DNA from: Aphrocallistes beatrix | Lineage: Eukaryota > Porifera > Hexactinellida > Sceptrulophora > Aphrocallistidae | Assembly: GCA_963281255.1 (NCBI GenBank) | Contig: OY725493.1 | Coordinates: 1,735,550-1,799,549 of the forward strand | DNA length: 64,000 nucleotides | Reading direction: 5' to 3' | Shown here: positions 3,201 to 47,501 of the stretch, piece after piece | Layout of the letters: each line of letters begins with the position of its first letter | How positions within the stretch are numbered: the stretch's first letter is position 1 | The notes under the pieces: model-generated | The model's input: only the letters and a program-made list of their open reading frames with translations | Databases searched by the model: none | Told to the model about the DNA's origin: nothing | Program-made: the position numbers and the translations under genes

Positions 3201-6200
3201 TCAGTTACGGTAACATGGACCGTAGCTGTGTCAGTGAGGGGAGAAGGAGAAGCTGGGTAGTTGTTAGCAGAGAGGAGAGTCAAGTTGTAGAATGAATCCG
3301 TTCTGTAGTCCAAACTGCCCCGGAGGTAGAGAGTTCCTAGAGAGACATTCTAAACCGATAAATGACTGATTATGAAATTTTTTAATACATTTAAACTAAT
3401 CACATCGTTGCAAAATAGTTCATTGTGAAATGTAATGGCTTATTTAAGCCAATACTTAGAGATTAACCTGTGTTAGGATGGAGATAGAAGAGTTGGGTAT
3501 GATCCAACAAGGAGTAGAACACATTGGTCCCATAGTTTCCGGTATCTCGGTCTACGGAGGTAACCTGGAGCAGCTCTGTACCTAGCTGTGCTTCTTCTCC
3601 CACGCTGAGGGAGTAGGAGGGCGAGGAGAAGAGAGGAGGGAACTCATTGATGTCAGACACTGAAACGAAGAGGGTTGTATAAGATGTGAGAGAAGGAGAG
3701 GTACAACAGCTACAAGATATAGTCAGCTCGTAGCTGGAGGCGTTTTCATGGTCGAGGCTTGCAGTAATGAGACCAGTGGACGGGTCTATTTTGAAGGTGT
3801 CAGAGGAGATGGAGTACGTGAATGGAGGATTGGGGCTAGAACTGGTGCGACAAGAAACACGTTCAATCTACAATACATGTATATAGATATTGTACAGAAA
3901 ATAATTTGTTAAACGAATTAATTTTTTTAATTAAATATTAAAACTCGTCTAGACTTACGTCTTGTGAGTTTATATTCTCTGAAACGGTGGCGAAGTATAC
4001 GCGTTTTTCGAAGTGCAGGTCATCAGGAATATCCAGCAGTGTGAGTCTGAATGTGACGGAGGAGTTCAGGTCCCCGGGAGTTCCCTGTATGGGAGAGTTG
4101 GAGGCTGTTATCTGTAGTGAGTACACGGACTTCCTCTCTCTGTCCAGACTTCTGAGGAGGTAGAGAGACCCGGAGTAGAGGTCTACGTGGAAGAGACCCT
4201 CCTCTTCTGTCGAGGTTAGGAAATAGTAGATGTCTCCGTCTCTCCCAGAATCCATATCAGAAGCAGTGAACTAAAGACAATGATTTTTGCATACCTTAGC
4301 TAAGTAGAAATTTCGTGATTGACTCGAGCAGGTTGGGCTCTGAGACGACTCACACGGAATTATGATGTCATTGTCACATATTTTTATAAATTCATAAGTA
4401 TTTACCATGCATGATTCAAGCATTGTTACTCGGTTATTGATGGTTCACAGGGCCCTGATGTGGAATACAAGTGTAATCCCTGAGGACAGGAAGTGCATAG
4501 GCCAGCGAAGCGTGCTTGTTATAATATAATTATATAATAATTATATAATAATTATATAATAATTATATAATTATTATATAATAATTATATAATAATTATA
4601 TAATAATTATATAATAATTATATAATAATTATATAATTATTATATAATAATTATATAATAATTATAATAATTATATAATAATTATATAATAATTATATAA
4701 TTATTATATAATTATTATATAATTATTATATAATTATTATATAATTATTATATAATAATTATATAATAATTATATAATTATTATATAATTATTATACAAT
4801 AATTATATCTTATATATTAAAACGCTAGGATTTTTATTTGTGTTTGTCAGAATTGATTGAAAAATTGGCAAGTGGTAGAGATATGAAAATTGGCAAGCAG
4901 GTGTCAAATGATAACTACGATTAAGTTCAGAGCGAAATTTTCACACCAGATCTAAGCGAATTTTTAGCTTCCAACAGTTGACATAGGGGTTTTGGGGTGT
5001 ATATTTCGAATATCATATTTTCAGATCGATATGATAAATGATTTGTTACTTTTGTTTACATTAGATACACAAAGTACAAAATATAAAAATAACTAGAGAC
5101 TGGCTTCCAACGGTTGACATGGGTTTTCCGGGGTGTAGATTTAGAATATTATATTTTTGGATCTATTGAAAAATTATTTGTTAACTTTTGTTCACAATAT
5201 TTATATAAAGTTAAAAAAATCCCAAAATAGTCTAGATTAAGTAACTCCAGGCGCCCGCAGGGCGCTCTGCGGACACAAAGTGTCCGCAAGCCGCGCAGCG
5301 CAAGCAAGGATTTTTTTGTTTTTTTTGTTTGTCCGAATTGATTGAAGAATTGGCAAGTCGTATATATATGAAAATTGGCATGTAGGTCAAATGATGCTTT
5401 CAACGGTTGACATGGGTTTTTGGGGCGTAGATTTCGAATATCGTACTTTCGAACCATATGATAAATTATTGTTTATATTTGTTTACAATAGATATATCGA
5501 TTCTGAATTTGTTGATATCCCCATCGACTCAGCGAACACAAAGTGTTCGCTAGCCAGCCACGCTACGCAAGTGTGCGAAGCTCGCTTGTAGTATAATATT
5601 CCGTAATAATAAATAGCTGTGACTCAAAGATACATGAAGAAGCTCATAGAGACGTGGTCCAGTTACAAGCACCGATTCGTGCCCTGGCTCTACCTCAATT
5701 GGAGGACTCGCCGTGTTGCCATCAGACCGAGAGCAGCGCTGCTACAGAACACAGACGAGTGCATTAGCTCCCTGTTAGAATTCCTAACCGAGCTAGCTAC
5801 GACGCTACCACACCACTACCTGTACGCAGATGTCGCACCTGATTGGGCGGTGAGAAGGGGGAGGGAGGTGATGGAGAGGAGATTCGGGTTCATTTGTGAG
5901 AGGAGACGGAGTGGTATCAGTAAGGGGGGGACAGGGGTGTTTGTGACAGAGGGATGTGCACCTAAAGAGAGACTAATGTGTCTCTACCCAGGAATGGTAT
6001 ACCTCCCTTTCCACCCTCTATTACTGGTATCTATAAGAAACCGGTACTTACTCCGGTGCTACGATGGAGTGTTCGTAGACGGCAAGAGCACCGGTCTCTC
6101 TCGGATCCTCTACCGGTCATGCGCTAATAGGGACAGAGTGGGAGGCAGACTGAGGTGTGATCTGAGCTGGCTGGGTGGTGAACTGGTCAACCCTCTCTCT

Positions 6201-7501
6201 TTGGGACAGAGAGTCAATAACCAGTCCGATACGAGGGGTGCTAATGTGGAGTATATTGAGATGAGCCTGCGTATGGGACAGCTGGCACCGATGCTACAGA
6301 GACTCATGCCTTATACCTGCTACAGCAGTGGCAGTGGAGAGGAGAGTGTTAGGGTGGTGGGGCTTGTTTCCACTCGACAGATTGAGAGAGACGAAGAACT
6401 GCTCTCGAACTATCTTACCGTTGTGAACACAACACGGAGTTAATGTGTAATTACTTTTTGAAACTTAAACTTACTTCAGCAATTCTGTTTTCAGGTTTCG
6501 TATTCTCAGATATACTGGAAGTGAGAGGTGAGGTAGTGAATCGAGGTGGAAACTCGTTGATAGGCAGGATAGAAACGAGGATGGAGACGAGAGTTGATAA
6601 GGGAGGCTCTCCTAGGTCGGAGATCAATACCTCAAGCAAGAAACCGTCGGGAGTCTGCTCATAGTCCAGCGTCTGAGAAAGACTCAGAACGCCAGTCTCG
6701 TTTATTGAAAAGGCAGAGTAGTCATTCTAAATACAGAATAATTAACATATTGAATTAAAAATAAACAACTGCTGTCTACTACATAGTACTCGCATGCAAT
6801 GAATGTAGATACCTGTAGCTGATAGTTTAGAGTTGCGTTATTCCCTGCGTCCACATCCCAACACTGTAGGACCAGCGCTTCGTTTGTAATTGAATTCTCA
6901 TCGACTGATATTGCATAGAATGTGTGAGTGCATAGAGGCCTGTTGTCATTGATATCGCCTATGCTGATGCTAACATTAGCAGTGTCTACTACCGTGCTGT
7001 TACACGATGCTAATGCTATCAGCTCGTAGAGAGGAGTGCTCTCTCTGTCTAACACTGATGCAGTGTATATCGTGTTTGCATCCAATACGAAATGGGAATT
7101 CAAGGGGCCTGTGAGAGAGAGGCATAAGCATTCTTGGAAAGAAGCATTTTGTATTTGCAGCTGTAGTTGTAGGACGGGAGTGCCGAGTGGTTGGTTCTCA
7201 AGCAAGGACGAATAGTAGTGAGTGGAAGAAAAGTTTGCATAATCTAAAAACAGAAGACATGCCTGTTAATAATAATTATATATATATATAATTATATATA
7301 TATATTTATATATATATAATCAACATTTCATAATAACGCGACTTGTTTGAATGTTTGATATATCAATTCTTATCTTGAATTTTCTGGTCCTTTCTACTCA
7401 CAATATTTGTACACGAATGCCTGACTCGGAACAATTAGCTTACTTGCTTTGACAGAAGTTAGCTGCAGTGTGTAGATTAGTAAGAACAGGAACAGCGACA
7501 T
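284..7501 (-). CDS. Large Fat/Dachsous-like cadherin, 3' end outside the window (six exons seen)
   Basis: A secreted or membrane adhesion protein made of tandem extracellular cadherin (EC) repeats. Exons on the minus strand, from consensus splice sites and continuous reading phase: 7444-7501 (signal peptide MSLFLFLLIYTLQLTSVKA), 6813-7243, 6475-6726, 3959-4270, 3468-3867 and 284-3336, about 1500 residues. EC hallmarks recur: LDYE, D.DSGRDG, DINDNAP, INEFPP and SENxxxG. N-glycosylation sequons are abundant. The last visible exon ends at a strong donor (TAC|GTAAGT on the minus strand, near 283), so membrane and cytoplasmic parts must lie beyond base 1; the reading frame running on to a stop at 227 is intron read-through. 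Introns are 86-200 bp except one of about 2.2 kb (4271-6474), which contains SETD9 on the other strand. Calcium-dependent adhesion or planar-polarity function is inferred from the family. Confidence 0.88.
4285..4515 (+). repeat. Divergent family A element fragment (inside the cadherin intron)
   Basis: Contains a diverged version of the central family A block (GGAATTATGATGTCATTGTC, compare GGAATTATGACGTCATTGTC in full copies) and a degraded 3' tail (CCAGCGAAGCGTGCTTGT). It ends where the AT-rich microsatellite begins. Confidence 0.55.
4516..4806. repeat. AT-rich microsatellite (ATAATTAT units)
   Basis: About 290 bp composed almost wholly of ATAATTAT/ATTATTAT units with switches of phase, in the long cadherin intron between family A-related repeats. 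It is a simple sequence with no coding potential. Confidence 0.9.
4811..5600 (+). repeat. Two family A-related repeats in tandem
   Basis: Two related units, about 4811-5310 and 5310-5591. Each has the family head motif (GAATTGATTGAA, then AATTGGCAAG) and an end with the diagnostic hairpins (GCGGACACAAAGTGTCCGC then CCGCGCAGCGCAAGCAA in the first; GCGAACACAAAGTGTTCGC then GCGAAGCTCGCTTGT in the second). They form a diverged subfamily of the elements at 15.6 and 60.5 kb. The second ends about 40 bp before the SETD9 start codon, so it may supply part of that gene's promoter (inference). Confidence 0.6.
5634..6443 (+). CDS. SETD9: SET domain-containing protein 9 (SETD9-like), nested in the cadherin intron
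   Basis: A single-exon gene of about 269 codons, close to the length of vertebrate SETD9. The start is the ATG giving MKKLIETWSSYKHRFVPW; the open frame before it has no ATG. The family signature is clear: GTGVFVTEGCAPKERL, LYPGMVY, an RCYDGVFVDGKS..RILYRSCANRDRVG block and the SET core NPLSLGQRVNNQSDTRGANV, ending DEELLSNYLTV. SETD9 is a putative lysine methyltransferase whose substrate is poorly defined, so activity is inferred. The gene lies wholly inside a cadherin intron on the opposite strand. Its stop codon is only 31 bp from the next cadherin exon (6475-6726), so its 3' UTR probably runs antisense across that exon; the nearest AATAAA on the plus strand is around 6760. Confidence 0.9.
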   Translation: MKKLIETWSSYKHRFVPWLYLNWRTRRVAIRPRAALLQNTDECISSLLEFLTELATTLPHHYLYADVAPDWAVRRGREVMERRFGFICERRRSGISKGGTGVFVTEGCAPKERLMCLYPGMVYLPFHPLLLVSIRNRYLLRCYDGVFVDGKSTGLSRILYRSCANRDRVGGRLRCDLSWLGGELVNPLSLGQRVNNQSDTRGANVEYIEMSLRMGQLAPMLQRLMPYTCYSSGSGEESVRVVGLVSTRQIERDEELLSNYLTVVNTTRS

Positions 7502-19857: not shown

Positions 19858-22800
19858 ATGTCCCAAATTGCAGGGAGTGGAGAAAAACAAAAAGAATTAA
19901 TTCCCAGATTATCTATGACCTTTGATAAGGGGAAGATCCATCGGTGGTGTAGAGAAGGAAAATATAGCGAAATTGTTGATTTAATAAGTGAAGGTGTGAA
20001 GTTACAATCTCACTTAAAGTATGGAACCGGAGTGTTCGGGTATACTCCCCTGCATGAAGCTTGTGCAGCAGGACATAGTCAGATCACTAAACTGTTGTTG
20101 AAAGAAGGAGCGGATCCTAATGTGCGCTGTAGCAACAAATACACCCCATTACATCTTGCTACAATACAGAGACACCCTGGGTGTGTGGAGGTCCTAGTCA
20201 AGTTTGGGGGAGCGAAGATGAATGTGGAAGACAAATATAACCGAACTCCGCTAAACCTAGCAATCGAGAGAAAAAGCACTCGAATAATCAACTTGCTAAT
20301 GGGGGAGCAGATGCATCGAGCATGCAAAGACTCAGAAACAGAAGAAATTAACAAAGTTCTTTTAAACGCAAGCAAGTACAAACCAAACCCTATTCTTCCT
20401 GAAGATTACGAGCAATGCCTACTAAGCTGTATCGACAGTTGTAAGATCTTACACATGCGGAAAATCCTCCTCTTCTCCCCAGCCCACCACTACACCCAGC
20501 TGATAGAGCGGGCTGACATGCGCGGGAACATGGAGATGGTAGCATACTTGTTCCTCTGCTCGGCTGCTGAAGAGAACAAAATTAATCTCATCCGATTTAT
20601 TCTTAATATGAATGAAGGAAAATCTATTTACTGTGAGAAGACAAATCGGAACAGTACTATAACCAACAGTTTTCTTTCAGAAGATGAGGAAAAACTACTA
20701 ATGAAGAGTCTACCACAGCTAACCACTAACCTGGATAGGATTATCCCACTGATGCTTGCTAGGAAGAAGAAGAATAGCGCCGCTGTGTTAGAACTACTTT
20801 TGAACATTGATTGTAATAAGAAAACGAAAAAAATCGGCTGGCAAGGGTTGAAACTTCAAGAAATTGAAGATAACGTGCTGCAAAAGGTAGTATGGGTGGA
20901 AGAACTGGACCTAGGTAACAATCAGCTGAAAAGATTAAACGAAAACATCTGCGTTTGCCTTAATCTGGCCAAACTTGACCTCAGTAAGAATCGACTCGAA
21001 TATTTCGACCCCCTCTTATTCAGATCACTCACAAACCTGGAAGAACTTGATGTGTCTGATAACTTGCTCACGTCTCTACGTCCAGTTGTTGCTTCTAACA
21101 CACTGAAAAAGTTCAACCTGTCGGCGAATAAGATACTTTCTCTCCCAGACGGTCTGGTGCTCCCAAACATCCAGCATCTGTCCCTTTCCCACAACAAACT
21201 CAACCGCCTACCTTACTGCGTCACTAACATGACCACCCTGGAGGTTCTGGACATTAGTCATAACATGGGTCTTTTCACGCTGCCATTGGCCCTGGGGAAA
21301 TTGGAAAAATTAATTATTCTGCGTCTGGATGGCCTCCCTGAGCTAAACACCGCTGATTTTCCTAAAACTGCATACGACACAAATAGCAAGAAGATAGTGA
21401 GCAGTGCTCTGATACAGCATTACAAGCACAAGTATCAAAATAGTTGTGAGTTCAACAAACTCAAAATTTATGTTGTGGGCAAACAGAATCGAGGAAAGTC
21501 TACACTGGTACGAAGAATTAAGGAGAGCAAAGAAGACATCAACATATCTACAGTCGGTATTGAGATGAATGAGTGGACATATCCGAGTGGATTTTCTAAG
21601 AAAAGCATCAACTACATTTTGTGGGATTTCGGGGGGCAAGAAGAGTATTATGCAGCACACCAATGCTTCTTAAGCCAGGGCTCTATGTACTTGTTAGTAT
21701 GGAACATTACCCATGGGGAGATAGGGATACAGGAGCTCATTCCTTGGTTGGATAATATCAAAGCTAGGACTCCCAAATCGACACTGATTATAGTTGCTAC
21801 CCATCTTGACATGATGGCAGACTTTGAAGAAGTTGGGAGATTGCTAGATCTGCTGTCAGAAGAGGTACACCAATATCGAGGCCTAAGAGTGGAGAAAATC
21901 ATGTGTGTCAGTTGTTTATCCGGAAAATCCTCCTACATTAGTGAGCTGAGAGAGGCAATCCACCAGACAGCACTGAAGATTAAATCCCAAACAAGTCAGA
22001 GTGAAGAAAACGTATTTGGAACCAAAGTACCTCAATACTACTTAACCCTAGACAAGAAAATAACAGCTCTCAACAAAGATCTCAGAAAGCAAAAGAAGAG
22101 CCCGATCCTCACTTTGAAAGATTTTAAAAAAATCGTCGAAAGCTGGAACATCTCAGATTTAGTAGGGAAAAGTGAGATCGTAAAAGCTATCAACTTCCTG
22201 CATAAGGCCGGGAAATTGCTCTATTATAATGACCCTAACAGCGGTCTTAACGAATTAGTGTTTGTTAACCCACAATGGCTATGCAATATGATGGCGAATA
22301 TCATCACTATCCAAAACAAAAATCCATTTATTTCCAACGGATTGATGGAGGTCAGACATTTCCATAGCCTGTTCAAAGGACAAGGAAATGACTTCCCCCC
22401 GGAGTATTTTAAATGTTACTTGCATCTCCTTGAGAAGTTCGAGATAGGAATGAACATAGGGAATAGTGTTCTACTGATCCCGTCACTCCTCCCTTCTGAA
22501 CGTCCCACTGGAAATATGTTCGATCCTTTGACATTACAACCTTTCTATGCCAGAGTAGTTCTCGGAGTGGATATGGTTCCCTACGGGTTCTGGAGTAGGC
22601 TCCTTTCTAGGCTGCTCCATTGCATTTCCGAGTTGCGTGAACACATAAGTTTTATCAAGAAAGGAGTAGCAGACGAGTTTGAGAGAGATGGGTGGTGCAA
22701 CATTGAGATGATACCTCCTGGCTCTCAAAAAGGAAATACAAATCATATCACGACCATGATAACAGGACCTCAAGAGCCTCAATCGATTAACAACCCGGTA

Positions 22801-25137
22801 GTACTGCAGGTGTGGAGACAAGGGATCTTTTTTGATGACGGTGTTTCCTCATTTCTAGTAGAATCTCTCAAAAACTCAGATTTGGTGCAGTCTCAGAAGC
22901 AAGGAGTGCTCATAATCTGCTCGAAGAGAGTAGAGAGTTGTAGCAAATTCGGACAGATCTACGACACTATTCTCGACCTCTGCGCTTCCTGGTATCCTGG
23001 AGTCCACCTTGACACGTATCTGCTCAGCGAGGAGGTGGTACACATGAAAATGGATTTGGACGATGAAGAGACAACTCTACCTTCCATCCGCAGTTGGTTT
23101 GAGAATCCAAACAGACCACTCGTCATCGCCAGCAAAGAGCATAAAATAGAAGACTTGGCTCCAGACCTTCTCCTACTAGACTTACCTTCTCAATTCGTTT
23201 TAAAAAAGGAAAATTTTGAATTCGATGTTAATAAAACCCTTGGTAAAGGTGGATACGGATCAGTATTCGTTGGCAGCCACAAAGGAAAATCCGTAGCTAT
23301 CAAAACATATCATCAAACTCGAAATGATCCAGATAGCCAAAACGAAGCATTTTGTGAGCTGCGGAGAGAATCCATGGTCCTCAAGAGTCTACACCATCCT
23401 TGCCTGATCGGATTCGAAGGAATTCTAATGAAACCACACATGAGTCTGGTGCTGGAGATCGCTCCGATGGGTTCTCTCAGTGATCTCATCAATAAGAGCA
23501 GTCATGAAGGGAAGCCTCCCTTCGTGAGGCAGATCTACTACAGAATAGCAAAGCAAGTTGCTTCTGGTCTCAATTTTCTACACTGCAGGTCTCACCCGAT
23601 AATATTCAGGGATCTCAAGCCGAGTAATGTGCTCGTTATCTCGATTGATCCTCTCGAACGAATCCAAGTTAAACTGACTGATTTCGGAATCGCTGCATAC
23701 CTCCAACCATCTGGTCATGTGGGGCTAGAAGGTACCAAAGGATTCCAGGCACCTGAGATTCTTAAATATGGCGGCAGAGTCTATTACGATCATCGCGTTG
23801 ACATTTTCTCCTACGGCATGCTATTATACAATGTAGTGAGTATGAATTTGCCTTATGCTAGCATCAGCACCTTGCTGATTGACCAGCAGATAATAAACAA
23901 ACTACGGCCGTCACTCTCCAATGAAGTGCTGAACTACGGGTTGTGTCTATTTGAGGATGTGATCAGACTGTCATGGGATGATGACCCGAGAGTGAGACCC
24001 AATGCAAGCAGCATAATAGAGCTTGTATCCCAACCGACATTCCAATCCGTCATGTGCATTGAGAGAGTGAAGGGATGCTGGGATGTGGTTTATGTGTGGT
24101 ATGGTGAGGACACAATATTAACAGTATTACGGGGAAACAATGGCGAGAATAGGATTGAACTTAGGTGTAAGATTAATCTAACAGTAACCGCGATGATCGA
24201 ATACAAACATGAGGTACACGCAGCTGCTCTAATCAACGAACATGTATGGAGTATAAATAGACGCGTGGAATATGGAGACTTCTTTGCTGCAGTTTGGGAG
24301 TTAAGGAATGGAGAGTACATCATCGCGCATAAAGAGTTGTTTCCAGTAACTTGTAGTTCGCCACAACTTATAGAACACGACAAGTACGTGTATGCAGCGA
24401 GCAGAGACGGTGTGATATTCAGGCTTGTGAAGAACAATGACGCCATTCAGCGAGGGGAGTTAGAAATGCACCTCATATACACCAGGGCAAGTCCATTAGA
24501 CACTTTGATGATCGTTAACGATCAATATTGGTGTTCAAACGAGTTCGATGTATTCGTCTATGATCAGTTCAGCATTGAAACTAAGATAAACTACCCACTT
24601 CCCCGAAAAGGCTCGCATTTCAGATACATGACACTCGCTTGCTACAGAGATGAGGTTTGGATATCACACTTAGATCAGCCACTACTGTCTGTATTCAATA
24701 CGGAAATTCGTAAATGGAAAATGGATATTGATTTAAATCGAGCTATTAATCAAGTTTCAAATGTAAATGGCGGAACAGAAAGCTGCGACATTACGAGCAT
24801 ATGTAGCGAGCTGGATACAGTCTGGATTGGCCTATCAAATGGTACGATTGTGATAATGTCTGCAACTCAAAAGATATTTCTTATTACTCTTACCCCCTAC
24901 AAAGGCTCCGTACTCCATCTTCTCCCTATGTTAGGATCCGGCGCTACAGGTTCTGAAAAAGCATCGATTCTATCCTATGGGCATGGTTATACTTACGAAA
25001 GGTCCGTATCAAACAGTTTAAATAAAGAACATCGGAAAGATACAAAGGAAAGAGAAAATGCAATAATACTATGGGAATGTCAGAGCAGCGAAGAGTTCAA
25101 AGCTATGAAAGCAATGTCAGAAAGCAAAGTGATGTAA
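19858..25137 (+). CDS. LRRK1-type Roco protein (ankyrin-LRR-Roc-COR-kinase)
   Basis: 1759 codons in one exon. Domains in order: ankyrin repeats (about 25-150, YTPLHEACAAGHSQITKLLL); leucine-rich repeats (about 340-490); Roc GTPase (about 534-700) with P-loop GKQNRGKS near 541-548, DFGGQEEYYA and the THLDM guanine-specificity segment; COR (about 720-1080); protein kinase (about 1120-1395) with LGKGGYGSVF, VAIK, catalytic loop FRDLKPSNVL near 1249-1258, TDFG and APE; then about 350 residues suggestive of a beta-propeller. The kinase looks catalytically complete, with Phe in place of the His of HRD (human LRRKs have Tyr). Ankyrin plus LRR without armadillo repeats matches LRRK1 rather than LRRK2. 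Role by family: GTPase-regulated kinase in membrane trafficking. A family A transposon lies 335 bp upstream. Confidence 0.93.
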   Translation: MSQIAGSGEKQKELIPRLSMTFDKGKIHRWCREGKYSEIVDLISEGVKLQSHLKYGTGVFGYTPLHEACAAGHSQITKLLLKEGADPNVRCSNKYTPLHLATIQRHPGCVEVLVKFGGAKMNVEDKYNRTPLNLAIERKSTRIINLLMGEQMHRACKDSETEEINKVLLNASKYKPNPILPEDYEQCLLSCIDSCKILHMRKILLFSPAHHYTQLIERADMRGNMEMVAYLFLCSAAEENKINLIRFILNMNEGKSIYCEKTNRNSTITNSFLSEDEEKLLMKSLPQLTTNLDRIIPLMLARKKKNSAAVLELLLNIDCNKKTKKIGWQGLKLQEIEDNVLQKVVWVEELDLGNNQLKRLNENICVCLNLAKLDLSKNRLEYFDPLLFRSLTNLEELDVSDNLLTSLRPVVASNTLKKFNLSANKILSLPDGLVLPNIQHLSLSHNKLNRLPYCVTNMTTLEVLDISHNMGLFTLPLALGKLEKLIILRLDGLPELNTADFPKTAYDTNSKKIVSSALIQHYKHKYQNSCEFNKLKIYVVGKQNRGKSTLVRRIKESKEDINISTVGIEMNEWTYPSGFSKKSINYILWDFGGQEEYYAAHQCFLSQGSMYLLVWNITHGEIGIQELIPWLDNIKARTPKSTLIIVATHLDMMADFEEVGRLLDLLSEEVHQYRGLRVEKIMCVSCLSGKSSYISELREAIHQTALKIKSQTSQSEENVFGTKVPQYYLTLDKKITALNKDLRKQKKSPILTLKDFKKIVESWNISDLVGKSEIVKAINFLHKAGKLLYYNDPNSGLNELVFVNPQWLCNMMANIITIQNKNPFISNGLMEVRHFHSLFKGQGNDFPPEYFKCYLHLLEKFEIGMNIGNSVLLIPSLLPSERPTGNMFDPLTLQPFYARVVLGVDMVPYGFWSRLLSRLLHCISELREHISFIKKGVADEFERDGWCNIEMIPPGSQKGNTNHITTMITGPQEPQSINNPVVLQVWRQGIFFDDGVSSFLVESLKNSDLVQSQKQGVLIICSKRVESCSKFGQIYDTILDLCASWYPGVHLDTYLLSEEVVHMKMDLDDEETTLPSIRSWFENPNRPLVIASKEHKIEDLAPDLLLLDLPSQFVLKKENFEFDVNKTLGKGGYGSVFVGSHKGKSVAIKTYHQTRNDPDSQNEAFCELRRESMVLKSLHHPCLIGFEGILMKPHMSLVLEIAPMGSLSDLINKSSHEGKPPFVRQIYYRIAKQVASGLNFLHCRSHPIIFRDLKPSNVLVISIDPLERIQVKLTDFGIAAYLQPSGHVGLEGTKGFQAPEILKYGGRVYYDHRVDIFSYGMLLYNVVSMNLPYASISTLLIDQQIINKLRPSLSNEVLNYGLCLFEDVIRLSWDDDPRVRPNASSIIELVSQPTFQSVMCIERVKGCWDVVYVWYGEDTILTVLRGNNGENRIELRCKINLTVTAMIEYKHEVHAAALINEHVWSINRRVEYGDFFAAVWELRNGEYIIAHKELFPVTCSSPQLIEHDKYVYAASRDGVIFRLVKNNDAIQRGELEMHLIYTRASPLDTLMIVNDQYWCSNEFDVFVYDQFSIETKINYPLPRKGSHFRYMTLACYRDEVWISHLDQPLLSVFNTEIRKWKMDIDLNRAINQVSNVNGGTESCDITSICSELDTVWIGLSNGTIVIMSATQKIFLITLTPYKGSVLHLLPMLGSGATGSEKASILSYGHGYTYERSVSNSLNKEHRKDTKERENAIILWECQSSEEFKAMKAMSESKVM

Positions 25138-37298: not shown

Positions 37299-40200
37299 TT
37301 ATTTTTTAATAAACTGGTGTTCTAAATGGCTAGCTTGCTCAGAAGCTAAACAACGAATTAGACCGATCATCTCTGTCTTCCCTTCTCTAGCCCGCTTCTT
37401 GATAAAGTCCGGTCCTGTCATGGACTCTCTGTCCAGTGCCTCCACAAGCCAGCACATGTATCTGACCAGAGCTACCACCTCGCTATCATGCCCCCCTCTC
37501 TTAACCGAGTCAGGCAACAACTCCACTAACTGAGAGCACCTCTCCACGCAAGCAGAGTAGTCCGTGAACTGATGCAGGGCTAGTGTCAGGTACCGGTTCA
37601 ACAAGCCGTCAAGTATCAGTTCACGGAGCGTAGGCTCCGGCAGGATTCCTGTCCAAAGAGAGACATTAGCTCCGAGCTGTACTCCCAAACAGAACTGGTA
37701 GCAGAGTAAGGACTTCGCCTCGGAATTCTTCTCCAAGTGATCCTTACTGAACATAGGCATGTACAACGCCTGAGTTGAAGTAAGCAACGTTTTGCTTACA
37801 GTTTGGTACAGAGTTTGCATGGGCTTTTTAGATGCGAGAGAAGGGAAATCCTAGAACATGTTGTACAAAAAAACTCAATGCAAATTAAAAAATTATTGAT
37901 TTTAAGATTTAACCTACATGATTGATCTGCATTACAGAGAGTGCCAGTCTCCTAGTCTGCGAACTGGACATTGGGTCCCAGGCAGTTTTCGCTGCCTCTG
38001 TCAACAACGGGATGAGTGAGTGCTCGAGGAGGGCGGAGAGCAGGTTGTTAGAACTGTTCGAGATGGGAAATAGAGAGATGTACCATTCCTGCAACTTCCA
38101 GTCTAAGCCTTCGGATGTGAGAGGGTCCCATTTCAGAAGTTCAAGCCGAGCATAAATTGCTAAAAGTCTAGACAAATTGAAATTGATCCAATATAAAATG
38201 CTGTAATATCTCTATACTATCCATTTCTATGCTAGCCGAGTAATCCTTACTTTGGGAGAAACAGGGGTATGTAGGATTGTTGATAAGACTCCTCATGGGT
38301 CAGTCTCCAATTCTCAAAGCGCTTTACGACCAACTCGAGTGACGAAAACTCCTCAAGGGCGTCCGAGAATAAGTTTTCTGCTTCCTTTATAATTTCAGCT
38401 TTCTTTTTCTCGTTGCTCAGGTTAATCTCATCAAACCCCTTTTTTTCTTCAACCGTCAGGAGGTCAGCTTCCACGTGAGATGGATAGGATGATTGCACAA
38501 TCGTGATATCTTGTCGTGAAAGACGATCTCTTTCGGCAAGAACGAGTTTTTTGTGGTCAAGAAGTTTTTGAGCAATATCTGATCGAATACCAAGTATTTG
38601 AGATTCAATTCGCTCGATGATGGCTTGTTTCTCCCCAATGCATTCTAAAAGATCTCCAATGTAATCTCCAATCTCCCTGAAGAATCTAGGTTAAATCGAG
38701 AGATAAAATTTCAAGTTTACAGATATTAATGACCACCTAATCATTTTAGTACCTAAAAATTCAAGTTCCTTAGTCAACATACGCGCTGGATAATCAGAAA
38801 TTGGTTCCTAACATTATCAAGTTTCTGAAAAAGAACTCGCGTGGGAAGTTATAGAAAGATAAGAAAGGGCAACCAGTATTCCAAAATTCTAAAGATAGAT
38901 ATTGTTTATTGCTATGCAAACATATTGTATATTCTCTCTTTCCATCCTTAATTAATTACTAAGTAACAAGGTTCACTCGCTAGACGTATTATCAGCAGAA
39001 TTCTAATAAATTAGGAAATTCATCTGGAGAGATATTATTGCACGTGTACAATGCTATCGAATCGCTAAATATAGGATGATGATGAAAGAAAGTATTTAGA
39101 CTTAAGATAAAGCCTCAGAGATCTAAAATTAGCATAAATATTTAATTACATTAATTATGTAGAGAATGATCAGAATCCAAGGAAGGAGTTATTAAGACAG
39201 GCCATGGGGAAATGTTGTATCGAGAGAATGGAATTTAAATTATGTAAAATGGGTAGGCCAGTAGGTCGCTGCACTCCCACCCAGTAAACCAGCATAAAGG
39301 TAGAAAAATAAATAGGAAGAAATAAGTTCTTTCTTTGCTTTAGACATTTCACCTCGAGATATTCAAAAACCTTGAGAAATATCGATAAGGAACTCTTAGG
39401 CTCAGAGACAGAAATGATTAAGGAACCCGAGGCTCAACTTTAATACACGGTTCCTTGTTAATAAAATGAAGAACTCTGTTTGAAATGTTTAAAATAGTTG
39501 TATACCTCGTGACCAAGATAGTCCTGACAATATTTAACATTCTTTATATGTAATATATTGTATCTAATTTCACCTTACCATTAGGTTGAAATAACTTATA
39601 TGCAAAGAAATATTGAGCTAGCATAAAACTATAGTCATCAGATCAGTATTCCAAGGTTAAACTAGGAATGGACAGAGGTTTTAATAATCAAAATAATGCA
39701 CCCGCTCAACCCCCTCAGTATGGCGTAACAACCCCGCTAATCCCACCACAGCAACATCCTCCTGGTTCCATGAATCCCGCAGGTAAGAGTTATGTACATT
39801 GCTAAGAGCTAAGCGCTTTCTGTGTATGACTATTTTTTGGAATGAAAACATTTTGAAAGTATAATTATCTTGTTTAGGCTACCAAGGACAAGGACAACCA
39901 TACCTTCCTGTGTATGATGCCCAAAGCTCTCCCCCCCAGTACCAAGGGGACCAGGCATTTGCAAAACCGGAGTTCCTACGACCCGTCAAGAACATCACAA
40001 ATGGCTGGGCCTGGTGCATCGCAACATTTTCTATTCTCTGCTGTCCTATCACTGGAGTTATAGCTCTGCTATTCGTAGTTAGCGCATATTATCAGGAAAA
40101 GAAGCAAGCTTATCAACAGGCAAAGAGAAGAATCACAATAGCGAAGATCATGAGCGGTATAAGTGTCAGTCTCGGAGCAATTATTATCGTCTTCACCATC

Positions 40201-43200
40201 GTATCTGTTCTTGTAATAGGATTTGGACTTCGTATTTAACTGTAATTGTTATACTCTTAATTAATATATTTCCATGTTAAATGGCTTGAGATGTGCTGGA
40301 GAATCCTAACTACATGTACCGTCATTATGTGAAATGTATTAAATAAGTCACTGGTTTGTCGAATGTCAAAAACATCGTCTTTAATTCATCAGATTAGGGT
40401 TTAAAACATATATTTAGGTTGACTAGTTCAGATCCCATATTGCGTATGGGACAAGTTTTCTTGCTAAATTGACAAGCTAGAAACTGTGTCTTTTTAAAAA
40501 GGCTAGTTAAATATTGGCCAATACATCTATCGCATATTAGCCAAAAAATAATCAAAATTTCACCCCAACTTTACTGGTTAATCAATTACTAGAGATCTAG
40601 GACAGCTCATAACACATGCCCTGCAAATTACAATACATAATATTTATCTGTAGACTTAGGAAATGGAGTTTAGAAAGTTGATGATAGACCAGCTGCTGAT
40701 TGCTTGTATTTTAAGAAATTCAAGGCAAAGTTTATAATGGTCATTGCTCATTCACGTACAATGGATTAGTCAAAACTCTGATTAAATAAGGTCGTTAGTC
40801 TCGTAGCTTGTAGAACACATCTATCATACATTAACTATAACTCAGCAAATTAAGAGTTAGAGAGCATATCTTCATGATGAACTATAGTTCACAAAAAAAA
40901 CATACCTGTAATTTTCTTTATCTCTTTCAATATTTTCCTTCGAATTCTGGAAACTTTCTTCTGTAGCTCGAATGCTTTCAGAATTCCTATCACATTCCAT
41001 CTGTTGAAATGTGACAGTCTCATCCAACTTGTCATGTTCCCTTCTGACAGATAGTAAGATAGACTGGACGGTGACTTCAGAAACAGAAACTGCAGTATGA
41101 GTCGAGCTAAACAGAGACATGTACGTAGTATCATAACGCAATTGTTATACTAGCTGAACACATTATTGTACCTTGTACCGCCATTCTCAACTTTCCAAGG
41201 ATCCTCTATGCGTGGATATTCAATCTGGTAGCTACTCCTCATCTCTGCCCTACTATACTGGTACATGGTAGCAGTATCTCCATGGACCAAGTCCCTACCC
41301 TCTCCTCTAGACGAGATGTGCTCTCCAGAATAGCGAGTGCTATCTACGTACTCATCTACCACAGCCCTCACAGTCACACCTTTCTTCATCTGCTCTTCTT
41401 CCCATTTCTTTACCTAATGAAGTGAGATGATATCCTGCATAATTATTATAATTTCTACAATAAAAGGTAAATATCTCTAAATTTAATAATTCCGGACGCT
41501 TATTATGCTCTTAAATATCCTTAAGATCCTCTGAGGGAGTTAGATTTCCTCTTCCTCTTTCCCCAACTAAGTACAGTCAGGGTCGCTTATTGTGAACCAC
41601 CAGGGGACCAAAAATTTTGTTCATAATAGAGATACTTCATATTAAGCGAACTTGATTCAATACAAATCCAATCTAAAATGAAATTGGGACCAGGAGGTTA
41701 GTTCATAATAAACGAATGTTCATAATAAGCGACCCTGACTGTATATGCCTTAAATGATAATCATTTTCTAGTCAATCGACACGTACTAAAGCATTATCCC
41801 ACCTAAATTATAGACAATGACTTTTAATAAGATACCAGTAAGCTGAACCTTACTCGATGACATATTTGCAGGGAGTGGCCTGATGACTGGCCGTCGCTAA
41901 GAACCACATAAAAATAGATATACTTACGTAGCTCTGTTGCGTGGTATTTTGAGATCGTTGTATTAACTAACCATGGATTAATGATATATCGTAGTATTCT
42001 GAGATTTGTTTCGGATACTCAAATGGGTATATCTCAAAATACCACAGTATTAATTAATCCATGGTTAGTTAACTTAATACTAGTATCTCAAAATACTACA
42101 ATCTCAAATTATACCACGCAACAGCTCTATAATGATAATGATACCGTAGTTGATTAAAATATCGTATTTGATACATGTGACAGTCAACTCGAGTTGTTCT
42201 CTGAAACAAGATATCCATATCATACATTACTAATTTAAATTCTATTACAGAGTCACAAGCTAGATAGTCACGTCTCGTAATTCACTGACCTGACCTGAGA
42301 ATAGCGCAGCTTATAAGATTCAAAGTATAAAATGAGATTCAGGAGGCAGAGACACTGACCAGTTAACATCTCCAAGGAAACATATTTATAAGCTAGCACA
42401 ATGGCGGAGGATACACCGCTTATAACAATAAATAGGGGTATAAACGAATCTAATGGGATACATGGAATGCTATGGTCTGTAGCATCTGGGAGAGTAGGAA
42501 AACTCATCTGTGTCGGGATTGCAAATGTGCTGGTTGCTTTAAACATAGGTCTACTCTTCGCCTGGACAGGAGCGGAACAAAATTCCAAAAATACACAAGG
42601 GTATTCGTTCGATCCGAAAGATGGGAGATTCTTCAATTTGCACAAACTCTTCATGGTATTCGGGCTCTGCATCCTCCCAGCGAATGGATTCCTTATTTAT
42701 CGATACAACTTTCTTCGCTTGCCGCGTTTGCTCTTCAAGATTACGCACGCGATCGTTATGCTCGCTTCAATCGGGTTTGGCATAGCAGGACTGGGAATCG
42801 TAGTCAAGCAGTTAGAAACATGGCAAACAAAGCACTTCACAGATCTGCACGGTTGGTTCGGATTGCTGACGCTTGTCGTGTTTCTAGCACAGTGGGTGGT
42901 CGGGCTTGTGACCTTCCTACTCCCATTAGGAATCAAAAAAAGTCTTAAAGAAGTCATAATGCGATTTCATCGTTTCATTGGAATGATGCTGATAATGCTA
43001 CCGACAATCACGGCACTGATGGGAATATATAGCTTTAAATCTAAACAATATTATAGCGAATTAAACTACTTGGGAGAATTCCTAGGCTGTTTCCTATTCA
43101 TTCAGGGGGTGTTTGTGTCATTCCTACTCTATGGTCCTGGGAATCTAATACTGCAATCATCCGACGGAACAAAAAACGAAAATAAGCCAGGAGGTAGAGG

Positions 43201-46200
43201 GCTAAAGTAATCGATCTGAATTATATAGTAATTTCTATTTTGCTGTTCATCTGTAGTATTCTGTAAACTTGGATAATTAGCATGTACATGTACAATTCAT
43301 AATTTTGTGATTATTGGCATATATTTTGTTAAAAAATATTTTGTTATGGAATAGTTGTTCTACTACGTAGGGAATAAAAACTACTATTATTACCCTTGCC
43401 TCACTTTTAACTTAACTGTTCGGATAATCCTACTGTCTAAATCGTTTTTGTATTTCTGATACAAGGCAAGAGAGGTAGAATCTTGATGTGTTGCTTATAA
43501 ACTTAACGACATAGTCATAACTTTCTAAATTCTAGAACATAATGCAATTATGCAACATACTTACCTCTTCATCCTCATCAGAACTAGATCCATGTTGCAG
43601 CACAGTACGTTGAACAACAGACTTCTTTCGCTTAGCTTCATCAAGTATCTGAACGGGTAAGAGGGATTCTTCCTCCTCACTGATATCCGCATCCATGTCT
43701 TCCCGTATCAGTCTGGAAGCATGGAGTGGCTTCTGCACAGAAGTATCCTCTCTACTCTTCGTGGTGCGCTGGTTCATGGGGATGAAGGCCGGGAGTGAAA
43801 CGTCGGCATCCTGCTCTTGTTGCCGTCTTGCGATTTCTCGCTGCTTCTTAGCAAGGTGGATGGTGGTGGCATCTGGTATCACCCCGATCTGAACGGTGGA
43901 GCGAAGTTTAGAGAGATCATCTCCGTTATTCTGCAAAAATAAATTTTTATATTGATGTACTGCTAAATTAAAGTTACTACAATAAATTCCATACTAAACA
44001 CAAAACATTGGCTGATGTACAATTCAACATAGCCGTCTTCTAATTAATTATTCCCCGCATAAATGCACGATAAATTAACTGAAGGAAAAAACTGTGAAAT
44101 GAAAGACTAGCTAGTGCACAATGGATTAGTGATTGCCTATACTGCATAATGAAATCCAACAATAACTAAGCCATACACACAACCACTTGAATAGCACATA
44201 TGATGGAGTCGACTACAGCAATGTGATATCCAGTAGAAATAGCTACTAACTAGTAAAATAGACAGAACCGTATTTTAACATTGCTTATTGTTTAACTATC
44301 ATTTCGTATGTAACCAGGTAGTAGCATGAAGATATGCGTCACAATATGCTGTCTTCTGACGGTAGCACATCTCGGTGTGTCTGTCGAGCTTGAATACGGA
44401 TCTGATGAATATAACCGAGCATGGAAAAGAACTATTGAAAGAGAAGAGTCCGAGGTTAGCATCCCGACCGATTACCTGAGCCCTTACGCCAAAAATTCGA
44501 GGTTTGAGAGATCGCTAACTAGCTCAAAGAAGAAGAACTTCACACACTTCTACGAGGTATCCAGCGAAGTAAATGATAAGGCATGGCCTCATATAGAAAC
44601 GCGGCAATTCGTGGACGGTACCAAAGACTTGAAGAGGTGGGCAATAGGCACAGTGACGTATGTGGACACCCCGCGCTCAACCTTCTCAATACTAGAACCT
44701 TTCAAGCAAGGAAGTTGTAATAGCGTATGGGCGATACGTTCTACGGTCCAGACAACAGCTGGGAGAAGAACAGGTGGCTGTGCCGTAGCGCAGAACGCAG
44801 GATTCTTTCGGATTAATTCCAACTCCTGTCTCGGGAACATTGTCTCAGATGGGAGGTTCGTACGGGAGTCAGACCACGTGGTGAATGCTAACTTTGGAAT
44901 AAAATCTAGCGGGAAGATATTTGTAGGGTACCTGTCTAATGAGGAAGTGAAAAATCAGACCGACCCCTTCCTACAGCTAGTGAGCGGGGTGATCTGGCTA
45001 GTGAAAAACGGCACTAACTTCGTGAATGAGAGTATGTACATAGAGTCGGCCAATAACGAAGGCACTGGCAACATGAACGAATTCGTGAATGTTCTGTCCG
45101 CACGGACAGCTCTGGGACATGACAAGGAAGGGCGTGTCATAATGGCAGTGATAGAGGGGCAAACGCACAAGAGAGGAGTGAACCTCTTCGAGCTAGCGGA
45201 CATTCTGATAAGGCAAGGAGCAGTGAATGCTATCAACCTGGACGGGGGCGGGTCTGCTACCCTGGTGGAGGAGGGGATCCTGGTCAATCACGTGAGTGAC
45301 CACTGTTCCAGCGACCCAGAGTATAGGTGCATGCGTGCAGTCTCCACAATCCTGTGCGCACATGATGTGAGCTGCGTGCCCCAGGACTGCAATGGACACG
45401 GAAATTGTGTGGATGGAGTTTGTAACTGTACGGAACCATGGACTGGGCTGGGGTGCTCACAGCTCCAGTGTTATGTTGGTGCGTGTGGAGAACATGGCGC
45501 GTGTGCGGAGGAGGCGAACATGTGTGAATGTGAGGACGGGTGGATAGGGGAGTTCTGTGAACATACATGTCCCAGATATTACTACGGGCCCAACTGCCAA
45601 GAGATCTGTTGGTGCACCCTGCATGGGGCTTGTCACCCAAGTACAGGGGCGTGCCAATGTGATCCCGGCTATAGAGGGGAGAGGTGTGAAGAAAAATGCT
45701 CAGAAGGGAGATATGGGAACGGTTGCAGTGAGGAGTGTCAGTGCAGTCAGAATTCAGCCTGCGATCACGTGATGGGGTGTTTGTGTGAGCATGGATGGGA
45801 GGGAGAGTATTGCAACATCTCGGCGATACAGAACATTCCATCTCAAGATTCAGATAATATTACAACAACGGAGGCTAACACTACTGCTGCAGGAATAGTG
45901 TTACCAACAAATGCAACTGAATTGCAAACAGATACAAGCGTTGTTCCAGAAAGTTCCATTCCCACCCCTTCAACTTCTCATACAGTCAAAGATTCACAAG
46001 ACACAGAAGATTTAGATGATATGGAAACCACAACTCCTGGCACTTCTACTGCCACTCCCTCACACAGCGAGACAGTGGCTAATTCCACAGTGATACTTAG
46101 CACAGAAGAAGAAGGACACAGCAACTTCGATACATTCCTAAGGTACACGGGGATTAACATGAGTGCAACGTGTGTGCAGCCCCTGATACTCTCCTACCTG

Positions 46201-47248
46201 CCACTCGTCACGTGTTCTGTTTGCTCGAATTTGCTCATCTGCTTTCTGTCCTGGCTATATTGGGGCAGGAAAACGGATAGAAAATACGAAGGGAAGACAC
46301 GGCGGCAGCAGAGTAGAATGGAGACGGCAGCGAGGAGACTGAAACTTAAGGAAGGAGGGTTCCTTCAAAAGGTCCTGAGAACTCCTGTCTCATACGAACC
46401 AGTGTCAACTCAGTTGGGTAATGAAACCTCTGACAGTTCTAGTTAGGCAATGCTATTCTGCTAGTCCACTATTGTATCTGTATTTTAGATTAGAGGTGTG
46501 ATGCAACAAGTTAATTCAGGGACTAAGCACTGGATCTACGCATTTGTATGTTATGATAAATCACTGATTCACATTAACCATAAGTGAGTATTAATTTGGA
46601 ATGTTTGTAAATTGCAGGAAATTAAGAGAAAAACTATTGTTCGTATCAACTAATTAGTGTATAACATTATCTGAAGAGAGTATACGGGAGTAATTGGATG
46701 CTAGTTTGGAGTTAATGTACAATGGTGGATGCGGGTAGATAGACTTACTGACCTTACCTCGGCTTGGGCGGATTCAGACCCCGAGGGAGGAGAGGAAACC
46801 TCTAACGAACCAGTGGCAATGCTCGATTCGCACATTGGGACAGGAACCGCGGGGTTTCTTGACTTGTGCTTGTGAGAAATAAGACTCTCTCTGGCCATCT
46901 TGCGGCTATGGGAAGATCTCTTGAGTTTGATCGGTTCGACGATATCCTCGTCATCGCTCCCGGCCAGGTCTTGGAAGGTGAGTTGTGTCCGAGGAGTTGG
47001 ATTCTAGAATGAAGGAGTCGCAACAGTATTCCAATACAAGCATTAATTAACAATCTTCACAGCGGTCTGCGTCTATGCTACTGTGGTCCTACCGGTTTCA
47101 GGGGCTGAGTCTCGCTAGCAGGGGGGGCGGATGGGGGGCAGCTATTCTCAGCGCTGGCAGGATTCTCTTCGCTCGCTTTCTCCGCACTGTCTAAAAGTTG
47201 CTTACGGAAATTCCGCTTCCTTCCTCCGGACTTACCAGAACCAATCAT
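37299..47248 (-). CDS. PAXBP1: PAXBP1/GCFC-like protein, eight exons, host of three nested genes
   Basis: Exons on the minus strand: 47093-47248, 46758-47003, 43565-43930, 41172-41413, 40906-41106, 38251-38685, 37918-38167 and 37299-37850. All have GT..AG introns in matching phase; the sum is exactly 816 codons including the stop. Landmarks follow the human order: LTFQDLAGSDDED..KRSSHSRK near the N terminus, IGVIPDATTIHLAKKQREIA, KKWEEEQMKKGV, FFREIGDYIGDLLEC, LPKLLAIYARLELLKWDP, LLTEAAKTAWDPMSSSQTRR, and LRELILDGLLNRYLTLAL in the GCFC domain. PAXBP1 and its paralogue GCFC2 are nuclear proteins linked to Pax-dependent chromatin regulation and to spliceosome work (lariat intron turnover); I call PAXBP1 rather than GCFC2 with moderate confidence. 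Four introns are 65-89 bp; the three long ones (2.15-2.83 kb) each contain a complete plus-strand gene. Confidence 0.9.
38700..39660. other. Intron sequence upstream of the nested CD225 gene
   Basis: About 960 bp of the 2.2-kb PAXBP1 intron before the nested gene. AT-rich, with no repeat family recognised. It must carry the promoter of the nested plus-strand gene. Confidence 0.4.
39668..40239 (+). CDS. CD225/dispanin family two-pass membrane protein (nested in PAXBP1 intron)
   Basis: Two exons, 39668-39782 and 39878-40239 (donor GCAG|GTAAGAG, acceptor TTGTTTAG|GC), 158 residues. The N-terminal half is Pro/Gln/Tyr-rich and cytosolic (PPQYGVTTPLIPPQQ, LPVYDAQSSPPQYQ). The C-terminal half is a CD225 domain: NGWAWCIATFSILCCPITGV (first membrane segment with the double cysteine often palmitoylated in the family), then AYYQEKKQAYQQAKRRITIAK and a second helix. 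Family members include IFITM, PRRT1 and SYNDIG1 and act in membrane fusion or vesicle and synapse biology; the ligand or cargo here is unknown. The gene is wholly inside a PAXBP1 intron on the opposite strand. The start is preceded by TTAAACTAG|GA-ATG. Confidence 0.8.
40240..40905. other. Intron sequence downstream of the nested CD225 gene
   Basis: About 665 bp between the CD225 stop codon and the next PAXBP1 exon. Holds the CD225 3' UTR. No repeat or further gene recognised. Confidence 0.4.
41574..41741. mobile_element. Tc1/mariner-pogo type MITE
   Basis: 168 bp with terminal inverted repeats CAGTCAGGGTCGCTTATTRT.. at both ends and TA at each flank (41572-41573, 41742-41743). The inner parts are also complementary (TTCATAATAAGCGA). 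The TA duplication and CAGTCAGGG-type ends are typical of pogo-like MITEs. It lies inside the PAXBP1 intron, upstream of cytochrome b561. Confidence 0.85.
41936..42122. mobile_element. MITE with 6-bp flanking duplication
   Basis: 187 bp beginning GTTGCGTGGTAT and ending in its complement ATACCACGCAAC, flanked by AGCTCT at 41930-41935 and 42123-42128. Inside are repeated TTTTGAGAT segments and inverted CCATGG-centred parts. The superfamily is uncertain. It ends 279 bp before the cytochrome b561 start codon, so it may form part of that promoter. Confidence 0.75.
42401..43210 (+). CDS. Cytochrome b561 family transmembrane electron carrier (nested in PAXBP1 intron)
   Basis: 269 codons, one exon. 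Six membrane helices are visible. The four heme-ligating histidines are in place: H81 (NLHKLFMVFG), H116 (KITHAIVML), H150 (DLHGWFGLL) and H190 (RFHRFIGMM), giving two b hemes. Such proteins move electrons from cytosolic ascorbate across vesicle, lysosomal or plasma membranes to ascorbate radical or ferric iron; which partner applies here is unknown. An N-terminal DTPLI and the neighbouring acidic residue resemble an acidic-dileucine sorting signal (inference), suggesting endo-lysosomal location. The gene occupies a PAXBP1 intron on the opposite strand, with two MITEs upstream. The start context is CACAATGGCGG. Confidence 0.9.
   Translation: MAEDTPLITINRGINESNGIHGMLWSVASGRVGKLICVGIANVLVALNIGLLFAWTGAEQNSKNTQGYSFDPKDGRFFNLHKLFMVFGLCILPANGFLIYRYNFLRLPRLLFKITHAIVMLASIGFGIAGLGIVVKQLETWQTKHFTDLHGWFGLLTLVVFLAQWVVGLVTFLLPLGIKKSLKEVIMRFHRFIGMMLIMLPTITALMGIYSFKSKQYYSELNYLGEFLGCFLFIQGVFVSFLLYGPGNLILQSSDGTKNENKPGGRGLK
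43211..43564. other. 3' flank of nested cytochrome b561
   Basis: 354 bp between the b561 stop codon and the next PAXBP1 exon. An AATAAA at about 43374 (GGGAATAAAAACT) is a plausible poly(A) signal. Nothing else recognised. Confidence 0.4.
44326..46446 (+). CDS. NAGPA: NAGPA-like uncovering enzyme (nested in PAXBP1 intron)
   Basis: 706 codons, one exon, type I membrane protein. Signal peptide about 1-19 (MKICVTICCLLTVAHLGVSV). The phosphodiester glycosidase domain spans about 105-345: VAQNAGFFRINSNSCLGNIV, GRVIMAVIEGQTHKRGVNLF, and NAINLDGGGSATLVEEG, which carries the conserved glycine-rich catalytic loop. Next come several EGF-like modules (about 355-505, regular cysteines such as CNGHGNCVDGVCNC), a Ser/Thr-rich stalk, a membrane helix (about 620-645) and a cytosolic tail. 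Human NAGPA removes the GlcNAc cap from lysosomal enzymes in the trans-Golgi to expose mannose-6-phosphate. More EGF modules than in human are a difference. The gene lies inside the longest PAXBP1 intron on the opposite strand. CCAG precedes the start by 8 bases. Confidence 0.93.
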   Translation: MKICVTICCLLTVAHLGVSVELEYGSDEYNRAWKRTIEREESEVSIPTDYLSPYAKNSRFERSLTSSKKKNFTHFYEVSSEVNDKAWPHIETRQFVDGTKDLKRWAIGTVTYVDTPRSTFSILEPFKQGSCNSVWAIRSTVQTTAGRRTGGCAVAQNAGFFRINSNSCLGNIVSDGRFVRESDHVVNANFGIKSSGKIFVGYLSNEEVKNQTDPFLQLVSGVIWLVKNGTNFVNESMYIESANNEGTGNMNEFVNVLSARTALGHDKEGRVIMAVIEGQTHKRGVNLFELADILIRQGAVNAINLDGGGSATLVEEGILVNHVSDHCSSDPEYRCMRAVSTILCAHDVSCVPQDCNGHGNCVDGVCNCTEPWTGLGCSQLQCYVGACGEHGACAEEANMCECEDGWIGEFCEHTCPRYYYGPNCQEICWCTLHGACHPSTGACQCDPGYRGERCEEKCSEGRYGNGCSEECQCSQNSACDHVMGCLCEHGWEGEYCNISAIQNIPSQDSDNITTTEANTTAAGIVLPTNATELQTDTSVVPESSIPTPSTSHTVKDSQDTEDLDDMETTTPGTSTATPSHSETVANSTVILSTEEEGHSNFDTFLRYTGINMSATCVQPLILSYLPLVTCSVCSNLLICFLSWLYWGRKTDRKYEGKTRRQQSRMETAARRLKLKEGGFLQKVLRTPVSYEPVSTQLGNETSDSSS

Positions 47249-47501
47249 CACGAACAATAACTACGCACAATATACTGCAGTGGATATCATGCAACTACGC
47301 TAAGTGTGTAGTAATAGTTATTGGTGGGTCGATTTGGGGGATTTGGGTCAAGCAAGTGAAGTTTGTTTCTAATCAATGTGATAATATCGTGAATCCGGCA
47401 AATAAAGCAATTTCAAATATTTCGAGAATGAGATACGTATGACGTTATAAGCGCCGTCAGACATCTACTGTAATTAAATAATTTAGTATAATTATGCTGC
47501 A

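Follow-up and report, generated by a model that had tools for sequence, protein, structure and literature searches.

Three opposite-strand genes nested in the long introns of a PAXBP1/GCFC2-type gene of the glass sponge Aphrocallistes beatrix

Intronic nesting of genes is already common in compact animal genomes. The glass sponge Aphrocallistes vastus is reported to have 2432 nested genes among 19,578 (12.4%), many of them called conserved, together with 12,409 single-exon transcripts (PMC10282587). For the ctenophore Hormiphora californensis, 2357 nested genes have been reported in 1654 hosts, some of which hold several (PMC8527503), and the figure given for Caenorhabditis elegans is 567 opposite-strand nested pairs, such as ceh-10 in polq-1 (PMC12274878). 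Here, we analysed a 64,000-nucleotide stretch of the Aphrocallistes beatrix genome (hereafter the window; GenBank assembly GCA_963281255.1, contig OY725493.1, positions 1,735,550 to 1,799,549 of the forward strand), in which a PAXBP1/GCFC2-type gene carries a predicted gene on the opposite strand in each of its three long introns (Table 1). Like the genome described for A. vastus, this is a compact glass-sponge genome with short introns, many single-exon genes and nested genes; unlike the reported A. vastus assembly of 80 Mb in 186 scaffolds (PMC10282587), the present one comprises 100.5 Mb in 28 contigs, the window lying on contig C7. As described in H. californensis, one host can hold several nested genes (PMC8527503), whereas the 14-base spliced-leader tail of that ctenophore is not enriched here (3 matches versus 4 in the reversed control), and on this ground we rejected a ctenophore origin. 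The guests resemble ceh-10 in polq-1 in occupying introns on the opposite strand, with the difference that an effect of the guest on its host is reported to have been measured in C. elegans (PMC12274878), the description of the PAXBP1 locus being drawn from sequence. In a literature search that favours papers containing more of the query terms, none of the top 8 of 355 papers named PAXBP1 together with nested genes. The locus is a new example of an already common arrangement.

Splice-site search and exon joining assembled the eight host exons into 2448 nt, that is, 815 codons and one terminal stop, with GT-AG borders at all seven introns. This reproduces, counting the stop, the 816 in-phase codons of the first-pass annotation, and its four short introns of 65–89 bp (introns 1, 4, 6 and 7; 89, 65, 83 and 67 bp) were recovered; the coordinates of the three long ones are exactly those that it gives. 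The long introns were set at the positions given in that annotation, and their flanking exons join in frame. At the short-intron junctions, further in-frame GT-AG options exist and the sites used are the best among several, so the length of 816 codons depends on selecting the best-looking sites. The host protein is a homologue of chain PX of PDB entry 8ro2, which we take to be human PAXBP1 (E 3.4e-47, 164 bits, query residues 36–799). The alignment falls into two stretches, one strong (residues 447–799, 136 bits) and one weak by itself (residues 36–449, 24 bits, i-Evalue 7.6e-5), the latter spanning introns 2–5. GCFC2 (chain 9s2e_GC) scored lower, at E 8.5e-33 and 117 bits, in a ranking by alignment score. 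The host also carries the GCFC domain (PF07842, E 2.3e-10, 41 bits versus a cut-off of 28.1) and thus combines the domain with similarity over most of its length, as expected of the PAXBP1/GCFC2 family.

The same alignment bears on whether the exons on either side of the guests form one gene. At intron 3, the junction DEE/VKKWEEEQMKKG matches 8ro2_PX on both sides, as does the junction YR/FFREIGDYIGDLLEC at intron 5, and at intron 2 conserved stretches lie to either side of the junction. Because the similarity to 8ro2_PX extends to either side of the guests, and because frame and phase also join, the exons flanking the guests belong, as far as can be read from the DNA, to a single host gene, in agreement with the first-pass annotation. 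Two or more separate minus-strand genes between the guests would be compatible with short-intron choices that are not unique, but they are scarcely credible when the match to a single protein starts ahead of intron 2 and continues through to the end, and when the exons join in frame and phase. A genome search with PF07842, which failed to pick up the host because its domain is divided among exons, found two further GCFC-domain loci ~24 kb apart (C9:831987-832787 and 856035-856835). In both, a single open frame (774 and 776 aa) covers the entire domain. They might be of the TFIP11 type.

The coding region of each guest lies wholly within one host intron (3/3). Profile searches placed the NAGPA guest in PF09992 (E 2.3e-31, 109.7 bits versus a cut-off of 25), with similarity to PDB 6u11 (E 8.5e-121), and the b561 guest in PF03188 (E 3.2e-27, 95.9 bits versus a cut-off of 23), with similarity to PDB 4o6y (E 2.4e-13). 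The third guest matched PF04505 at E 4.9e-5 and 23.8 bits, under the gathering cut-off of 27.1, and is for this reason named dispanin-like only; its intron was chosen among several in-frame junctions. Judged by these scores, the NAGPA and b561 guests are firm predicted members of their families and the dispanin-like guest is a weak one. A hexamer coding score, with 33 other long ORFs from this genome as its training set, was highest in the proposed reading frame of each guest (among six frames) and of the host (among the three frames of its own strand). The guests scored 0.082, 0.008 and -0.069, and six guest-free intron pieces scored at most -0.275 in every frame. According to these gene models, the arrangement of three putative plus-strand coding regions, one per long PAXBP1 intron, is real, and the opposite strands of host and guests noted earlier are borne out.

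The claim of one whole plus-strand gene per long intron stands for the coding parts of all three guests and weakens at the family assignment of the CD225 guest, whose match lies below the cut-off. Completeness inside the intron can be stated for coding parts only, because the NAGPA coding region, which stops 311 bp short of the end of intron 2, has no AATAAA or ATTAAA between its stop and the intron end. That interval contains just a GATAAA variant, and an AATAAA first occurs at 47401. The 3' end of this gene may use the variant signal or extend into host exons. No Rfam match at the gathering threshold was found in the PAXBP1 locus.

Table 1. Features of the PAXBP1/GCFC2-type locus (window positions) and the occupied or transposon-bearing long introns of the genome survey.
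Feature	Position	Strand or orientation	Description
Host gene, PAXBP1/GCFC2-type	37299..47248	-	8 coding exons, 815 aa
Host exon 1	47248-47093	-	spliced gene model
Host exon 2	47003-46758	-	spliced gene model
Host exon 3	43930-43565	-	spliced gene model
Host exon 4	41413-41172	-	spliced gene model
Host exon 5	41106-40906	-	spliced gene model
Host exon 6	38685-38251	-	spliced gene model
Host exon 7	38167-37918	-	spliced gene model
Host exon 8	37850-37299	-	spliced gene model
Host intron 2	43931..46757	-	2827 bp, after codon 134, phase 0, guest NAGPA
Host intron 3	41414..43564	-	2151 bp, after codon 256, phase 0, guest b561
Host intron 5	38686..40905	-	2220 bp, after codon 403, phase 2, guest dispanin-like
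Guest 1, NAGPA-type phosphodiester glycosidase with EGF repeats	44326-46446	+	706 aa, single exon
Guest 2, cytochrome b561 family	42401-43210	+	269 aa, single exon
Guest 3, dispanin/CD225-like	39668-39782 + 39878-40239	+	two exons, 158 aa, one 95-bp intron
MITE-like element	41572..41743	.	172 bp, 26-nt terminal inverted repeats, arms 96% complementary
Second palindromic element	41929..42129	.	~201 bp, host intron 3, inverted repeats I2-I4
CCT intron		antisense guest	4194 bp; 354-aa ankyrin-repeat ORF
CCT intron	C9:4033085-4082068	mainly antisense	48,984 bp; tandem ORF array
Kinesin intron	C11:3957705-3959540	two antisense ORFs	1836 bp; MCTS1-like (pre-PUA + PUA) and ATG12
Kinesin intron		antisense guest	1196 bp; PRK-family kinase ORF; profile gap skips 24 positions
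Myosin intron	C10:228986-231503	sense guest	2518 bp; zinc transporter (Cation_efflux), 376 aa
Myosin intron	C10:235228-243243	three sense ORFs	8016 bp; one NHL-repeat, two without Pfam match
Transposon-type intron			20.8 kb; Mos1 helix-turn-helix, 32.5 bits, over cut-off
Transposon-type intron			23.6 kb; reverse-transcriptase/retroviral-type RNase H, 85.8 bits, over cut-off
Transposon-type intron, kinesin			15.6 kb; RAG1-like piece, 22.7 bits versus cut-off 25, under
Transposon-type intron			1621 bp; Tc3 helix-turn-helix, 22.4 bits versus cut-off 31.5, under

The first-pass annotation had offered two scenarios for the origin of the arrangement. One of them, insertion into short introns, which we take here as recent insertion of retrocopies or duplicates, is in our view unlikely. 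It would fit the single-exon structure of the b561 and NAGPA guests and the reported observation that duplication into introns often gives nested genes (PMC8467205). However, no second NAGPA-domain match was found in the genome, in a search that a copy finely split by introns could escape, and each of the eight b561 matches in the genome, guest included, has its domain in a single uninterrupted frame, so an intronless b561 guest is normal for the family here. The dispanin-like guest retains its intron. Of its 15 matches in the genome, two correspond to its own exons, and the closest of the remainder shows 52% identity. No poly-A tail was evident by eye beside the single-exon guests, and the pattern expected of a recent retrocopy, a parent gene with introns accompanied by a copy that lacks them, was not found. 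With a single NAGPA match and a best dispanin paralogue this divergent, the guests do not have the appearance of recent arrivals.

We surveyed long introns elsewhere in the same genome using Pfam profiles of four families, CCT/Cpn60, kinesin, aldehyde dehydrogenase and myosin, which yielded 35, 55, 14 and 78 matches, respectively. Since adjoining profile positions indicate exons of one gene, the gap between two such matches was treated as an intron; lengths are approximate, and the shortest (13–40 bp) probably reflect trimmed ends. Neighbouring matches more than 25 profile positions apart were left out, which set aside two candidate introns of great length (C2:582220-638628 and C14:1909914-1934583) and a third candidate, of ~2.5 kb (C10:231798-234291). 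The minimum ORF length for a guest was 70 or 80 aa, raised to 150 aa in the four introns longer than 15 kb, a search that small or finely split guests escape. The resulting 102 homology-anchored introns comprised 44 below 150 bp, 31 of 150–500 bp, 10 of 500–1000 bp, 12 of 1–5 kb and 5 above 5 kb. Among the 17 introns of at least 1 kb, six held a gene, four held transposon-type ORFs and seven contained nothing recognisable. Guests were mainly antisense in four of the six occupied introns and sense in two, and both sense-guest introns (zinc transporter; NHL-repeat ORF) belong to one myosin gene.

Among the transposon-type introns, the 15.6-kb kinesin intron contains a 157-aa ORF (C14:1907559-1908029) that resembles part of the RAG1 recombinase and is possibly a RAG-like transposon. 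A further ORF of the 23.6-kb intron, antisense and 227 aa long, is of the OTU-protease type; instead of being cargo of a transposon, it might represent a guest gene. In the seven apparently empty introns, the longest ORFs, where tested, gave no Pfam match; these included an antisense ORF of 153 aa in the 1019-bp intron and ORFs of 122 and 101 aa in the 1926-bp intron. No Rfam match at the gathering threshold was present in the loci holding the empty introns. ORFs longer than 120 aa were absent from the 500–1000 bp introns inspected, nine of the ten.

The statement that no long intron is empty therefore holds within the PAXBP1 gene (3/3) and fails across the genome (7/17 introns of at least 1 kb without recognisable content), while the companion statement, that no short intron is occupied, is true and trivial, since 65–89 bp is too small for these genes. 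Guest-bearing long introns are frequent in this genome, and guest-free ones are frequent as well. The other scenario holds that introns shrink unless a guest blocks deletion, each long intron thereby marking a guest. It can draw on the full occupancy of the long PAXBP1 introns, on the genes in 6/17 other long introns and on the lack of large ORFs among the 500–1000 bp introns, but we consider it about as doubtful as recent insertion. Seven long introns have neither a recognisable guest nor an Rfam match in their loci, four contain transposon-type ORFs, and an occupancy of 3/3 has a probability of 0.044 at the rate of 6/17, for a pattern picked after the fact. In addition, a MITE-like insertion lengthens one of the very introns in question.

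This high-copy element sits in host intron 3, upstream of b561, and adjoins a second palindrome. At least 40 further near-full-length copies (94–97% identity) and two partial ones occur among 43 matches listed, which include the copy of the window itself, 40 of 1245 candidates having been scored; more copies than those listed are likely to exist in the genome. Intron 3 is thus partly lengthened by a MITE-like repeat. The non-guest parts of introns 2, 3 and 5 amount to 706, 1341 and 1648 bp, many times the length of the short introns of the host and far above what would remain had a guest simply been added to a short intron, so that neither scenario fits fully. Given this large remainder and the MITE-like element in intron 3, a good part of the length of the long introns may be due to space for promoters, UTRs and repeats.

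The survey also bears on the products of the guests. That all three are membrane proteins had been noted, but this cannot be generalised. Families matched by guests at other hosts include PUA/pre-PUA (MCTS1-like), ATG12, ankyrin and PRK kinase, and a membrane-type guest occurs as well (the zinc transporter in a myosin intron). Since soluble-type guests are found at other hosts, the membrane theme of the PAXBP1 guests looks like coincidence. We rejected a shared membrane function as a rule on account of the soluble-type MCTS1-like and ATG12 guests.

The anatomy of the locus, the strands, the one host reading frame and the coding potential are shown by the sequence. The reading that we favour, and hold to be very probably correct, takes the locus as a case of ordinary opposite-strand nesting, with three independent genes in three PAXBP1/GCFC2 introns of a compact genome. 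The host would be transcribed through the guests, which would be removed as intron RNA, and each guest would be transcribed from its own promoter on the opposite strand. Antisense placement would keep the splice and polyadenylation signals of the guests out of the host pre-mRNA, and the orientation may be tolerated because these signals are not read there; functional coupling between host and guests would be absent. Other nested ORFs in homology-anchored introns of the same genome (ankyrin, MCTS1-like with ATG12, PRK-family kinase, zinc transporter) support this reading. The guest introns show no depletion of host-sense poly(A) signals (7 observed versus 8.8 expected), giving no sequence sign of selection on interference. 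Antisense placement is a preference at most, since sense guests (zinc transporter, NHL-repeat ORFs) exist in the same genome. A published opposite-strand bias of about three to one, reported as 220/296 simple pairs in human and 193/248 in mouse (PMC8467205), makes the all-antisense guests of PAXBP1 unremarkable.

There are precedents for a regulatory arrangement, in which antisense transcription of the guests would tune PAXBP1 output, or the reverse: a nested gene of C. elegans is reported to induce its opposite-strand host (PMC12274878), transcription of a nested gene is described as triggering intronic polyadenylation of the host at H13/Mcts2 (PMC13309782), and for human cells it is reported that nested genes can lead to intron retention or exonization (PMC3192792). 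We nevertheless regard regulation as improbable at PAXBP1, as the families of the guests are unrelated and comparable nesting is seen in the same genome at hosts of other kinds. Ordinary nesting thus remains the preferred reading.

The largest occupied intron of the survey lies in a CCT-type gene, which we presume to be CCT3. Its exons at C9:4082069-4084387 and 4032755-4033084 adjoin in the profile (to position 361 and from position 360), and the gap of 48,984 bp between them has a GT donor and an AG acceptor. The gap contains a tandem array of single-exon ORFs, many with a common start sequence: 19 antisense ORF pieces of at least 150 aa make up ~16 units, as three continue a neighbour, and there is one sense copy of 569 aa, with two further sense ORFs opposite antisense ones. 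Both array ORFs tested, one antisense and the sense one, carry TRAF-type zinc fingers. An assembly or rearrangement artefact may be the source of this gap. It is still less probable than regulation at PAXBP1 that the long introns of glass sponges are a principal landing site for genes, with antisense guests, including the ~16-unit TRAF-type array, kept by coupled host-guest transcription, and with the PAXBP1 locus as one of many regulatory units.

Other parts of the window and assembly yielded separate observations. An ORF of 276 aa at 5613-6443 (+), SET-like by eye and with no match in Pfam, is flanked by cadherin-like ORFs on the minus strand (3938-4270 and 6702-7265, of which the Pfam test covered 6705-7265) and is a possible fourth nested gene of the window. 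At 19858-25134 (+), an open frame of 1759 aa has ankyrin, LRR, Roc, COR-A, kinase and LRRK2-like propeller matches, and by these domains it is a predicted single-exon gene of the Roco kinase type. On contig C28, the open frame of COX1 (3140-4480) contains 16 AGA, 14 TGA, 0 TGG and 42 ATA codons, with AGA at what we take, by eye against homologues, to be serine positions. This codon use, with AGA at serine-like positions, no TGG and abundant ATA, agrees for COX1, the one gene considered, with that of hexactinellids, whose mitochondria are reported to read AGR as serine, to leave TGG for Trp nearly unused and to favour ATA/AUA (PMC2267718).

The 49-kb CCT intron array deserves more attention than the PAXBP1 locus itself, which taken alone is an example and establishes no new principle. 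The PAXBP1 locus does provide a clean case for asking whether a host tolerates three antisense guests. Because guest-bearing, transposon-bearing and apparently empty long introns coexist in this genome, the question of what keeps introns long becomes countable here.
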